Below, in pieces: positions 22,022-48,473 of a stretch of DNA of 64,000 nucleotides (the first letter of the stretch is position 1; each line of letters opens with the position of its first letter). Position numbers and translations under genes: made by a program. The notes beneath the pieces were generated by a model, which was not told where the DNA came from, made no database searches, and saw only the letters and a list, made by a program, of their open reading frames with translations. Origin of the DNA: a virus; the IMG/VR virus record IMGVR_UViG_3300020442_002701, positions 1 to 64,000 of that record, one strand, 5' to 3'.

Positions 22022-22186
22022 ATGGATGACAAACTGAATTATTACACACAACGTGAATGGGATAGAGTTGTTGGTATTGGCAAAGTGCCGCCAGAATATC
22101 AACATCCAGATGAAAAAGAATGGTCAGGGCAGGAGGATTCGAACCTCCGATCTCCTGCTCCCAAAGCAGGCGCTTTACCAGGCTAA
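22022..22186 (+). CDS. small plus-strand ORF running antisense into tRNA-Pro
   Basis: 54 codons from ATG 22022: the first ~34 residues (MDDKLNYYTQREWDRVV, KVPPEYQHPDEKEW) look like genuine protein sequence, but the last ~20 codons are the antisense of the tRNA-Pro gene (22121-22197), where the TAA lies. Either a short protein whose tail was replaced by the tRNA insertion, or an unexpressed remnant. No function recognised. Confidence 0.4.
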   Translation: MDDKLNYYTQREWDRVVGIGKVPPEYQHPDEKEWSGQEDSNLRSPAPKAGALPG

Positions 22187-22197
22187 GCTATGCCCTG
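22121..22197 (-). tRNA. tRNA-Pro(UGG)
   Basis: 77 nt with CCA encoded. Acceptor CAGGGCA/TGCCCTG, D arm, anticodon stem CCTGC/GCAGG with loop TTTGGGA (anticodon TGG), T arm GGAGG-TTCGAAT-CCTCC. C1 start is typical for proline tRNA. Last gene of the Trp-Ile-Pro operon. Confidence 0.95.
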
Positions 22198-22198
22198 T

Positions 22199-22292
22199 TG
22201 GTGGTCCCGGTGGGATTCGAACCCACATCGCTCTCTAATCTGGAGACTGTGCCGAGTATAAGCCGGGTGTTTTACCGTTAAACTACAGGACC
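22199..22292 (-). tRNA. tRNA with anticodon UAU (Ile, AUA) and expanded variable arm
   Basis: 94 nt, CCA encoded. Acceptor GGTCCTG/CGGGACC, D arm GTTTAACGGTAAAAC, T arm GTGGG-TTCGAAT-CCCAC. The anticodon stem has four pairs (CCGG/TCGG) plus a C-C mismatch, loop CTTATAC, giving UAU for AUA codons. The variable region is 24 nt and can form a small hairpin (TCTC/GAGA), unlike the 4-5 nt of normal tRNA-Ile. Identity rests on the anticodon and is less certain than for its neighbours. Confidence 0.75.
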
Positions 22293-22296
22293 ATTT

Positions 22297-22371
22297 TGGC
22301 ATAGGTGCAAGGAATCGAACCCTGTCTTTCAGATTTGGAGTCTGACGTGCAACCATTAACACTTCACCCAT
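22297..22371 (-). tRNA. tRNA-Trp(CCA)
   Basis: 75 nt, CCA encoded. Acceptor ATGGGTG/CACCTAT, anticodon stem TCAGA/TCTGA with loop CTCCAAA (anticodon CCA), T arm CAGGG-TTCGATT-CCTTG, discriminator G. Its 5' end begins directly at the U-tract of the upstream attenuator terminator. Confidence 0.93.
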
Positions 22372-22407
22372 AAAAAAAGCCCCTAAACAATTTCTTGCTA
22401 GGGGCTT
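22372..22407 (-). terminator. intrinsic terminator / attenuator before the tRNA operon
   Basis: On the minus strand a 9-bp stem AAGCCCCTA (22399-22407) with TAGGGGCTT (22377-22385), 13-nt loop, followed by a run of Ts ending at the first base of tRNA-Trp. The 5' arm can instead pair with AGGGGUUUG (22441-22449) inside the upstream leader ORF: that is 9 consecutive pairs with CAAGCCCCU (22400-22408), mutually exclusive with the terminator. Confidence 0.8.
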
Positions 22408-22434
22408 GTAAAAAAACTAACTATGAAAGTTAAG

Positions 22435-22500
22435 TCAAGACAAACCCCTCCCTATTATTATTGGGCACCAAAATATCGGCTGTGGTATATTCTTGTTCAT
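22435..22500 (-). CDS. 21-aa leader-peptide ORF rich in AUA codons
   Basis: ATG at 22500, with a strong ribosome-binding site AAGGAG 5 nt before it, stop TGA at 22435. Begins MNKNIPQPIFWC; of 20 codons after the start, five are AUA (three consecutive at 22453-22461), three are Pro and one is Trp. Exactly these codons are read by the three tRNAs encoded downstream of the terminator (Ile-UAU, Pro-UGG, Trp-CCA). Codons 18-20 (AGG GGU UUG) form the antiterminator strand. Best explained as a regulatory leader rather than a functional peptide. Confidence 0.6.
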   Translation of the reverse strand: MNKNIPQPIFWCPIIIGRGLS

Positions 22501-22519
22501 GTTAGCTCCTTAATTGTCT

Positions 22520-22636
22520 TTATAGTGTAACACATTTATTTATATGTGTCAACCGAGATCTTAATTTAAAGTTGATCTTTTTTTTATGGTGCTCTGAAAA
22601 CAAACGTTTGAAGCACCAGAGTGTGAAGTTGTCCAT
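22520..22636 (-). CDS. small basic peptide downstream of glutamine riboswitch (38 aa)
   Basis: ATG at 22636 after a GGGAG ribosome-binding site; begins MDNFTLWCFKRLFSEHHKKK and is strongly basic. It follows a Downstream-peptide-type glutamine riboswitch, the arrangement that motif is named for. In the leader, CACTT can pair with AAGTG around the GGGAG, which would be the expression platform. The 3' half of the ORF contains the sigma70 promoter of the next unit. By analogy with the basic glutamine-synthetase-inactivating factors controlled by this riboswitch class in cyanobacteria, a GS-modulating role is conceivable but speculative. Confidence 0.5.
   Translation of the reverse strand: MDNFTLWCFKRLFSEHHKKKINFKLRSRLTHINKCVTL
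22524..22552 (-). promoter_or_regulatory. sigma70-type promoter of leader ORF / tRNA operon
   Basis: Minus strand TTGACA (22547-22552), 17-nt spacer, TACACT (22524-22529), located 24 bp before the leader-peptide ATG. Confidence 0.7.
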
Positions 22637-22726: not shown

Positions 22727-22827
22727 TGGCTCTGGGGGAAGGACTCGAACCTTCACGCTAAATATATTGCAGTACATTCAGCACACGTTAAACAGACGTG
22801 CATGTCTACCAATTTCATCACCCCAGA
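22727..22827 (-). tRNA. tRNA-Asn(GUU) with very long variable-arm hairpin
   Basis: 101 nt, CCA encoded. Acceptor TCTGGGG/CCCCAGA with G discriminator (as in tRNA-Asn), anticodon stem CACGT/ACGTG with loop CTGTTTA (anticodon GTT), T arm GAAGG-TTCGAGT-CCTTC. Between anticodon stem and T arm lie 29 nt, of which 26 form a 10-bp hairpin (GCTGAATGTA paired to TATATTTAGC, two G-U pairs). Normal tRNA-Asn has about 5 nt there. It starts 6 bp after the stop of the aminoacyl-tRNA-synthetase-like gene. Confidence 0.85.
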
Positions 22828-22833
22828 TTAAAA

Positions 22834-23655
22834 CTACTTCTTATCTAAAGCGGCAATCATTCTAGTCATGCCTATGCCTCCGCCCACTCTTGGAAAGAAG
22901 TCAAATTCTAAAAACTTTTCAAGTTCTGCTTCTACTCTTTCTTTACCGAACAGTTCGAACAATAGTTTTGCATATGCACCGTCTGTGATTGTGTGGAATG
23001 TATCACGCATCATATCAACATCACAACTACGTTCTGCTGATCCTATTGTTTCCATACCGCCTAGTATCACATCAATTTTCTTACTTGTTGCTCCACCTTC
23101 GTATCTGCTCATATTCCAGAAAGGTGATGTCATCTCAGGGAAGTCTGTAATCATTGTGCTTCCAAAATTATTAAACATACTAATTTCATGTGATGCTTCC
23201 ATCTCTTGTGTAGGCTCCATTGCAAAATGTTCTTGCCATTCTGCATACGTTTTTTCTGTTGGTTTATCAAAGCCTAAGTGGTCACATAGTTCGTATTCCA
23301 TCTTTTTTAGATCGTTTATGTCACCTGGCATTTCAAATTCAAACATTGGAAATATAATATCATGTCTGCCTGGAATTGCATTAGGTTCTTGCCTGTAGGA
23401 AGTGGAGACACAAAAAAACCCCTTACTATCGGGGCTACTTAATAATTCATGTTCTAACCACATCTGGCCTGTCTGCGGCAACGGCCACACCTGGCCTGCG
23501 TAATTGTAAGTTGCTACATTGAATGGATCTTCACATGCGGCAAGTATGCTCAATCTGTTTTGAGTGTGTACTTCTTCAAAACCTTTATCCAAAAAAAATG
23601 ACCTTAAAAGGCCAACTGTTTTTGTAAATTTACTTGGGGATATTAACTGCGTCAT
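22834..23655 (-). CDS. class II aminoacyl-tRNA synthetase-like core (Asp/Asn/Lys subgroup)
   Basis: 273 residues. Contains a class II catalytic core only: motif 2-like STSYRQEPNAIPGRHDIIF then MFEFEMPGD, GSAERSCDVDMMRD, and motif 3-like FFPRVGGGIGMTRMIAAL (GxGxxR). The N-terminal OB anticodon-binding domain of AspRS/AsnRS/LysRS is missing (full enzymes are over 430 aa), as in AsnRS-related asparagine synthetase-like paralogues. The adjacent tRNA-Asn gene suggests a link to asparagine or tRNA-Asn, either amino acid activation or tRNA modification. Exact reaction unknown. Confidence 0.75.
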   Translation of the reverse strand: MTQLISPSKFTKTVGLLRSFFLDKGFEEVHTQNRLSILAACEDPFNVATYNYAGQVWPLPQTGQMWLEHELLSSPDSKGFFCVSTSYRQEPNAIPGRHDIIFPMFEFEMPGDINDLKKMEYELCDHLGFDKPTEKTYAEWQEHFAMEPTQEMEASHEISMFNNFGSTMITDFPEMTSPFWNMSRYEGGATSKKIDVILGGMETIGSAERSCDVDMMRDTFHTITDGAYAKLLFELFGKERVEAELEKFLEFDFFPRVGGGIGMTRMIAALDKK

Positions 23656-47759: not shown

Positions 47760-48128
47760 ATGAAACACAAACATTTAGTTATCAGATCAGAGGTTAACAA
47801 ACCCATTGTTAATAAAACAAAGGCCCGTAAGTTTTTACGTAGTCTCATAAAAAAAATTGCTATGAAAGAATTATATGGTCCAGTTGCATGTTATTGTAAA
47901 ATGGAGGGCAACAGAGGTATAACTAGTTTTGCAATAATTGAAACTAGCCATGTAGCAATGCATATTTGGGACGAACCTACACCTGCTCTTGTACAATTAG
48001 ATGTATATAGTTGTAGCAATTTTGATCCAAAAACAATCTTCGATCATTTACAAATAATGCAACCTGCAAAAATTGATTATAAATTTCTTGATAGAGAAAA
48101 TGAATTTATAGAAGTAATCAAAGGTTGA
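47760..48128 (+). CDS. speD: S-adenosylmethionine decarboxylase proenzyme
   Basis: 122 residues, class 1b bacterial-type AdoMetDC, which self-cleaves to form a pyruvoyl group and makes decarboxylated AdoMet for spermidine. Core: TSFAIIETSHVAMHIWDEPT (cleavage Ser63, conserved S-H-x3-H-x-W) and VQLDVYSCSNFDP with Cys85. The residue before the cleavage Ser is Thr rather than the usual Glu, which sits one place further up. Polyamines neutralise packaged DNA. The 3' end contains the tmRNA promoter. Confidence 0.85.
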   Translation: MKHKHLVIRSEVNKPIVNKTKARKFLRSLIKKIAMKELYGPVACYCKMEGNRGITSFAIIETSHVAMHIWDEPTPALVQLDVYSCSNFDPKTIFDHLQIMQPAKIDYKFLDRENEFIEVIKG

Positions 48129-48153
48129 CTTTTCATACAAAAGAGTATATAAA
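48125..48153 (+). promoter_or_regulatory. sigma70-type promoter of tmRNA
   Basis: Plus strand TTGACT (48125-48130), 17-nt spacer, TATAAA (48148-48153), overlapping the speD stop. Confidence 0.65.
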
Positions 48154-48159
48154 TATATT

Positions 48160-48435
48160 GCAACGTTGAAACAAACTCAACGGCATACAGGACCCGGGGG
48201 CAGTACCCGGCAGCTCCACCAAAATACTTTTAAGACGAGAGTCTTTTTGCGGGGCTGAACTAGGATCGACTGGTGGTTACTAGGTTTAGTGGAGTTGTCC
48301 GGATCTAAGCTCGGTTAACGCGAAGAACTTTATAATTGCAAACGACAATTATGCGCCAGAAATGGCATTAGCGGCCTAATTTAGGCACGTGGGGGTTGGC
48401 AACTTACCTAGCAACAGAAAAGTTGTTCGTTTAAT
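48160..48435 (+). ncRNA. ssrA: two-piece (circularly permuted) tmRNA
   Basis: The acceptor piece comes first: T-arm CCGGG-GGCAGTA-CCCGG, acceptor strand CAGCTCC, A, CCA ending at 48221. After a ~29-nt intervening segment the coding piece starts at 48251 with GGGGCTG, complementary to CAGCTCC. The tag frame starts at GCA (48338) and reads ANDNYAPEMALAA, TAA at 48377-48379, an alphaproteobacterial-type tag. Pairing segments and a GTTGGCAAC hairpin follow; the exact 3' end (~48435) is estimated. It rescues stalled ribosomes and tags the product for Clp proteolysis. Confidence 0.88.
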
Positions 48436-48441
48436 TTTCCA

Positions 48442-48449
48442 TATAAATA
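48442..48449 (+). promoter_or_regulatory. T4-type late promoter box TATAAATA
   Basis: Exact TATAAATA on the plus strand, 24 bp before the ATG of the Rieske-oxygenase-like gene, with AAGGAG between. Confidence 0.7.
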
Positions 48450-48473
48450 AAATACAGGCAAAGGAGATTCAAC

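Follow-up and report, generated by a model that had tools for sequence, protein, structure and literature searches.

Transcription of a phage tRNA operon found in 64,000 nucleotides of viral DNA (the window, part of a 69-kb virus record) is very probably controlled, to judge from its sequence, by a ribosome-mediated attenuator of the trp/his type. The case is built from the parts of the module, their conservation, compensatory changes in its helices and the matching of leader codons to operon tRNAs, all read from the DNA, and ribosome stalling, terminator read-through and the nature of the inducing signal are deduced from these. Should the attenuator act as its sequence implies, marine phages would produce tRNAs when needed, in answer to a shortage of those very tRNAs, and these would be the first tRNA genes known to us to be attenuated through a leader peptide by codons that their own products read. 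A preliminary description of this DNA had already proposed such an attenuator, and the proposal gains support from 71 loci in which the leader ORF, the antiterminator and the terminator are conserved and the leader codons track the tRNAs encoded downstream. The same description had made its proposal depend on conservation of the ORF and of the pairings in relatives; both are conserved.

The window virus is T4-like and marine in kind. Its NrdB shares about 66% identity with the NrdB of T4-like cyanophages and of Pelagibacter phage HTVC008M, its ligase and one tail protein are likewise phage-like, and no close relative was found among isolated phages. The attenuator and its operon lie on the minus strand (Table 1). 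The promoter, ribosome-binding site and 21-codon ORF of the preliminary description are all located where it had placed them, and its count of five AUA, three Pro and one Trp codons, 9 of 20 in all, is correct. The three tRNA genes follow immediately downstream, in the order Trp, Ile, Pro, and the intrinsic terminator with its U-tract lies between leader and tRNAs, as described, with a stem that is conserved in relatives. Under the window's own codon usage, the probability of at least nine of 20 codons for these three tRNAs is 7e-6, a post hoc value that is unconvincing alone, and that of at least five AUA codons is 8e-5, likewise post hoc. A generic promoter scan of the window returns promoter-like sites at the shuffled level, not significant, and a generic terminator scan of the window does not list the attenuator's terminator, which was probably missed owing to the shape of its loop or stem. 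What goes beyond chance is the conservation in 71 related loci, not the outcome of these generic scans. The window also encodes a tRNA-Thr (25285), directly behind a protein gene and without an attenuator.

Table 1. Coordinates of the attenuator and of the tRNA operon in the window
Feature	Position	Strand	Basis
Predicted promoter: -35 TTGACA (22552-22547), 17-nt spacer, -10 TACACT (22529-22524)	22524..22552	-	sequence
Shine-Dalgarno AGGAG of leader ORF	22506..22510	-	sequence
Leader ORF MNKNIPQPIFWCPIIIGRGLS, 21 codons, ATG 22500, stop TGA 22437-22435	22435..22500	-	in-frame leader with Trp in 71/71 loci
Earlier AUA and Pro codons of the leader	22488-22474	-	
Invariant putative sensor codon UGG (Trp), codon 11	22468..22470	-	in-frame UGG in 71/71 leaders
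Other putative sensor codons UGC CCA AUA AUA AUA (Cys, Pro, Ile)	22453..22467	-	AUA tracks tRNA-Ile(UAU)/tRNA(CAU) in relatives
G element AGGGGUUUG (= AGGGGTTTG, 22449-22441), region 2	22441..22449	-	antiterminator partner of 22408-22400
Region 2', UCUUGA + UUUCAUAGUUAG	22417..22440	-	complements leader start 22505-22491 (protector helix 1:2); fold and covariation
Terminator 5' arm CAAGCCCCU (= CAAGCCCCT, 22408-22400), region 3	22400..22408	-	alternative partner of G element
Intrinsic terminator, regions 3:4, 7-U tract 22378-22372 touching tRNA-Trp	22372..22407	-	sequence; stem conserved with compensatory changes
tRNA-Trp(CCA), first operon gene	22297..22371	-	ARAGORN, Rfam RF00005
tRNA-Ile(UAU), class II body, long variable arm	22199..22292	-	ARAGORN, Rfam
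tRNA-Pro(UGG), third in operon	22121..22197	-	ARAGORN, Rfam

Relatives were sought as a module of promoter, leader ORF of 15–24 codons, terminator and tRNA-Trp. In IMG/VR, 27 loci matched a 23-nt tRNA-Trp pattern, and ten of these share the architecture with a differing peptide, MSQTNTTYITCWPPSGGMS or near it. The set was enlarged via a terminator search, the GGGG...CCCC pattern and the adjoining ligase gene; loci scored as lacking the module, in the main terminators unrelated to it, reverse-strand readings or contig ends, were either discarded or inspected singly. The result is a set of 72 distinct IMG/VR attenuators, the window included, with a readable leader in 71, the remaining one (L148) having lost its leader at a contig end. 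All of the relatives are uncultured viral contigs. These metagenomic loci are of shared ancestry and contig ends can cut their operons; clearly cut operons were left out of the association tests. An exact search with the core of the window leader gave no match, and neither the 21-residue peptide (tblastn) nor the leader (blastn) has a real match among isolated phages. The attenuator pattern matched once in 84,980 bacterial and archaeal genomes, at a site in GC-rich DNA without a tRNA (L219) that is judged a chance match and rejected as a true attenuator, so the module looks virus-specific. Three related phages (L005, L009 and L038) carry tRNA-Trp immediately 3' of a promoter, without leader or terminator, and provide natural attenuator-free comparisons.

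An ORF of 15–24 codons is present in all 71 readable leaders, with promoter-like sequence 5' of it in 64 of 70 loci and a Shine-Dalgarno-like motif in 64 of 70. The lengths from start codon to GGGG differ mostly by multiples of three. Every leader contains an in-frame UGG, at codon 10–13 and 12–22 nt 5' of the GGGG element, and the minimal spacing of 12–13 nt fits a ribosome footprint. The first tRNA past the terminator is tRNA-Trp in all loci where it can be read; the exceptions in the ARAGORN calls are one gene that is visible but uncalled (L059) and two contigs that end inside tRNA-Trp (L110, L153). The U-tract abuts this gene, the gap being 0 nt in 33 of the 48 loci measured, which leaves no space for a second promoter, and the tRNA would therefore be made only via read-through. 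The emphasis of the preliminary description on AUA holds insofar as this codon tracks tRNA-Ile(UAU) and tRNA(CAU), but the invariant putative sensor is the Trp codon, to which AUA and others appear to be added where the operon has a matching tRNA.

Three helices, a terminator, an antiterminator and a protector, are supported across the 71 loci. At all 71 loci, the minimum-energy fold of RNA that still lacks the 3' arm of the terminator joins GGGG to the CCCC arm, in agreement with the earlier claim that the G element can pair with the terminator 5' arm and so remove it; when a ribosome is placed at the stop codon, the terminator forms in all 71 folds. The antiterminator fold has a mean z of -3.7 against shuffles (window, -2.6). 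Once the RNA is full-length, the terminator is favoured energetically at every one of the 71 loci, and antitermination would thus be kinetic, with the choice made during transcription. Covariation, named in the preliminary description as a check on both alternative stems, is seen in the terminator, where one position is paired in 65/71 loci, with the compensatory pairs U-A (30) and C-G (35), and further pairs occur. For the antiterminator the expectation holds only in part: GGGG:CCCC is invariant and the pairs outside it covary partially, since CCCC must serve two helices. GGGG is conserved even 3' of the stop codon (L043, L044) and in a shifted frame (L060, L062, L063, L129), and is therefore kept as RNA, not as peptide. 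At three loci (L156, L192, L211) a different hairpin stands between the two arms, GACGU/ACGUU or GACAU/AUGUC (paired by eye) rather than ACUUU/AAAGU.

The protector helix, formed between the start-codon region of the leader and the complementary stop-codon region, is a refinement to the preliminary description. Position 10 of the stop region follows the first base of the start codon without exception, the pair being A-U in the 55 AUG leaders and G-C in the 16 GUG leaders, and a base in the codon-2 region is matched to a base of TTRAC as C-G (54), U-A (16) or U-G (1). Swapping stop regions between loci weakens the start:stop duplex in 200 of 200 trials. The GUG leaders span two peptide families (VLRT..QQ and VIKTN), so that the change between AUG and GUG likely took place more than once, recombination being possible. 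With this third helix, the module has the complete set of helices of a trp-type attenuator.

The match between leader codons and operon tRNAs was assessed by counting codons 10–31 nt 5' of the GGGG element. Of 108 operon tRNAs other than tRNA-Trp, 91 have a cognate codon in the leader, compared with a mean of 58.6 and a maximum of 73 in 20,000 permutations, or a mean of 62.9 and a maximum of 77 when permutation is confined to start-codon classes; because the loci are related, the permutation P values are optimistic and a matched-pair test is fairer. The signal survives dropping Pro, then Cys, then Ile. Among nearest relatives that differ in a tRNA, Cys gives 10 concordant and 0 discordant pairs, Ile(UAU) 6 and 0, Ile(UAU) or CAU 15 and 0, Pro 7 and 1, and Ser 5 and 1. 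Synonymous codons follow the same rule: the sensing-zone Ile codons of operons with tRNA-Ile(UAU) or tRNA(CAU) comprise 44 AUA and no AUU or AUC, versus 6 AUA and 40 AUU or AUC among the 46 in operons lacking both. Individual loci, picked post hoc from a set that the permutation and matched-pair tests take in full, illustrate the pattern. The leader R-W-C-P-E precedes tRNAs for Trp, Pro, Cys, Glu and Arg (L190), Y-W-Y-P-P precedes Trp, Tyr and Pro (L166), and I-I-C-W-P-S precedes Trp, Pro, Cys, Ser and Ile (L218); in L115, Gly replaces Cys in leader and operon alike. Neighbouring loci pair SII-GGT-W with tRNA-Gly (L115/L147) versus SII-TGT-W with tRNA-Cys (L218), and CPSQ with tRNA-Ser (L204) versus CPPQ without it (L111). 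Many leaders contain Cys or Pro codons though the matching tRNA is not nearby, and tRNA-Arg(GCG), tRNA-Lys and tRNA-Ala have no leader-codon match.

AUA occurs in the leaders of all eight operons with a tRNA(CAU) (for example L060, L115, L198, L209, L214 and L217), which suggests that these 'Met' tRNAs are lysidine-type tRNA-Ile2. All eight distinct tRNA-Ile(UAU) genes observed (that of the window and those of L006, L046, L109, L115, L170, L213 and L218) are class II, 91–94 nt long, with CAGATTA or CGGATTA capping a long variable arm, and such a body is unusual for an isoleucine tRNA.

In the mechanism that these features suggest, a ribosome would translate the short leader close behind RNA polymerase, meeting codons that always include Trp, together with codons for further tRNAs of the operon (Ile-AUA, Cys, Pro, Ser or Tyr, for example). 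With charged tRNAs plentiful, the ribosome would reach the stop codon and cover GGGG, the CCCC arm would be free to form the terminator, and the tRNA genes would be off. With a charged tRNA scarce, the ribosome would wait at its codon, GGGG would be exposed and pair with CAAGCCCC to form the antiterminator, and polymerase would read through into tRNA-Trp and the downstream tRNAs. In the absence of translation, pairing of the start region with the stop region would occupy the base of the G element, with termination as the default. The distance from UGG to GGGG is about that at which a ribosome halted on the Trp codon would no longer cover the element. In the window, the second and third AUA of the triplet lie within about 10 nt of GGGG, so that by footprint geometry only stalls at Trp, Cys, Pro, the first AUA of the run and earlier codons should leave it free.

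The inducing signal may be amino-acid shortage or loss of host tRNAs, the sequence being compatible with both. A more specific proposal, entertained tentatively and at slightly less than an even chance, is a codon-resolved sensor of tRNA supply, in which the leader lists the codons of the operon tRNAs and loss of any host isoacceptor, for example through an anticodon-nuclease defence or host shut-off, would induce the replacement set. If this is true, the purpose of the phage tRNAs, the tRNA(CAU) genes as readers of Ile-AUA and the class II tRNA-Ile(UAU) among them, could be read from the leader.

Sensing of Trp alone, by a trp-like attenuator for tRNA-Trp in which the other codon matches are hitch-hiking or due to chance, would account for UGG being the sole invariant codon and tRNA-Trp the first gene wherever readable, and about ten loci with tRNA-Trp as their only nearby tRNA still have Cys and Pro codons. 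This reading is unlikely, because the choice of AUA or AUU switches with the presence of tRNA-Ile or tRNA(CAU) and codon and tRNA change together in the nearest-neighbour pairs described above. Less probable still is a nascent-peptide arrest around W-P-P, TnaC-like or of the poly-proline kind, by which free tryptophan or EF-P status would be sensed rather than tRNA charging. A P or CP after W is frequent in these leaders, and a slowing effect of WPP is plausible; the residues near W nevertheless vary widely (WPP, WPS, WCP, WYPP, WCSP, WPL, WCL) and several leaders have no PP. Only W is invariant in these peptides, no conserved nascent peptide of the TnaC kind being found in them, and arrest does not predict the observed dependence of codon identity, even among synonyms, on the tRNAs of the operon.

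That the structure is simply the terminator of a short unrelated gene, the tRNAs arising from leaky, unregulated read-through, would be compatible with the window feature taken alone and with generic promoter and terminator scans at shuffle level. It is scarcely credible in the face of the conserved alternative pairings, the perfect start/stop covariation and the codon-tRNA matching in 71 loci. Assignment of the leader to a T-box, an Rfam amino-acid leader or a known riboswitch was likewise considered and rejected, with no Rfam support; no T-box match was obtained in the window, the permissive threshold included.

Ribosome-mediated attenuation is classical for biosynthetic operons such as trp, his, ilv and pheA (PMC1183508). 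The phage module shares with these attenuators a leader ORF with regulatory codons, an intrinsic terminator, an antiterminator, a 1:2 helix that would form without translation and a presumed race between ribosome and polymerase. The elements that characterise the trp/his type are all present in its sequence, from the leader ORF with its ribosome-binding site and cognate codons to the terminator, the antiterminator and the 1:2 protector helix. Unlike the biosynthetic attenuators, the phage module regulates tRNA genes rather than enzymes, and its leaders offer a mixed codon menu that changes with the set of tRNA genes downstream; the invariant Trp codon usually has one or two codons of each kind about it. 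Attenuators of the pheST type exert leader-peptide control over tRNA synthetase genes. Leader peptides of hisS likewise place some synthetase genes under such control (PMC2965389). In both the phage and the pheST/hisS cases, the regulated product charges or supplies the tRNA that reads the regulatory codon; in the phage module this product is the tRNA itself, several together, and in a virus. T-box riboswitches, too, sense tRNA charging to control terminator read-through, as is proposed here, but they have no leader ORF, whereas the phage module would sense by translation.

For more than 50 years it has been a matter of debate what phages gain from their tRNA genes (PMC10264068). Phage tRNA clusters are reported to replace host tRNAs cleaved by defence systems (PMC10264068, PMC11555353). 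The tRNAs of the present operons may similarly supplement specific scarce host tRNAs; unlike those clusters as described, the attenuator would tie supply to shortage. A text search of PMC10264068 returned nothing on operons, promoters, leaders or attenuation. A literature search that took in few subscription papers gave no description of such control for a tRNA operon or a cluster of phage tRNA genes, in keeping with the preliminary description, which knew of none; an earlier report is possible. As far as found, feedback of leader codons on tRNA genes is previously undescribed. If it works, the attenuator would allow constant codon supplementation to be tested directly against conditional rescue of a depleted tRNA pool, and the role of odd phage tRNAs could be read off its leader codons.

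Several other structured RNAs occur in and around these loci. A structured RNA of 65–80 nt lies between terminator and tRNA-Trp in L075, L106, L120, L138, L199, L203, L210, L213 and others; its closing stem ACTACACTA/TAGTGTAGT shows compensatory changes, CTGCAA/TTGCAG may form a pseudoknot, and it has no Rfam match at the gathering threshold. In the window, a glutamine riboswitch (RF01739; 22659-22709, minus strand) lies just 5' of the attenuator promoter and is taken as a separate unit, which precedes the attenuator's own promoter; in L016 and L028, riboswitch-like sequence is found 5' of a short ORF beginning MN(Y/H)KDFE. In L138, a manA RNA (RF01745; 13813-14017) is directly 5' of the attenuator, where a recognisable promoter is absent. 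The window further carries a phage-borne permuted tmRNA of alphaproteobacterial type (48128-48470, plus strand; tag ANDNYAPEMALAA). A class II tRNA-like gene at 22730-22827 (minus strand), uncalled by ARAGORN and scoring 44.7 bits with the Rfam tRNA model, has the anticodon loop CTGTTTA and a Leu-like body, and adjoins an aminoacyl-tRNA-synthetase-like gene (22834-23655) that is annotated 'tRNA ligase' in P-SSM2 and P-SSM7.
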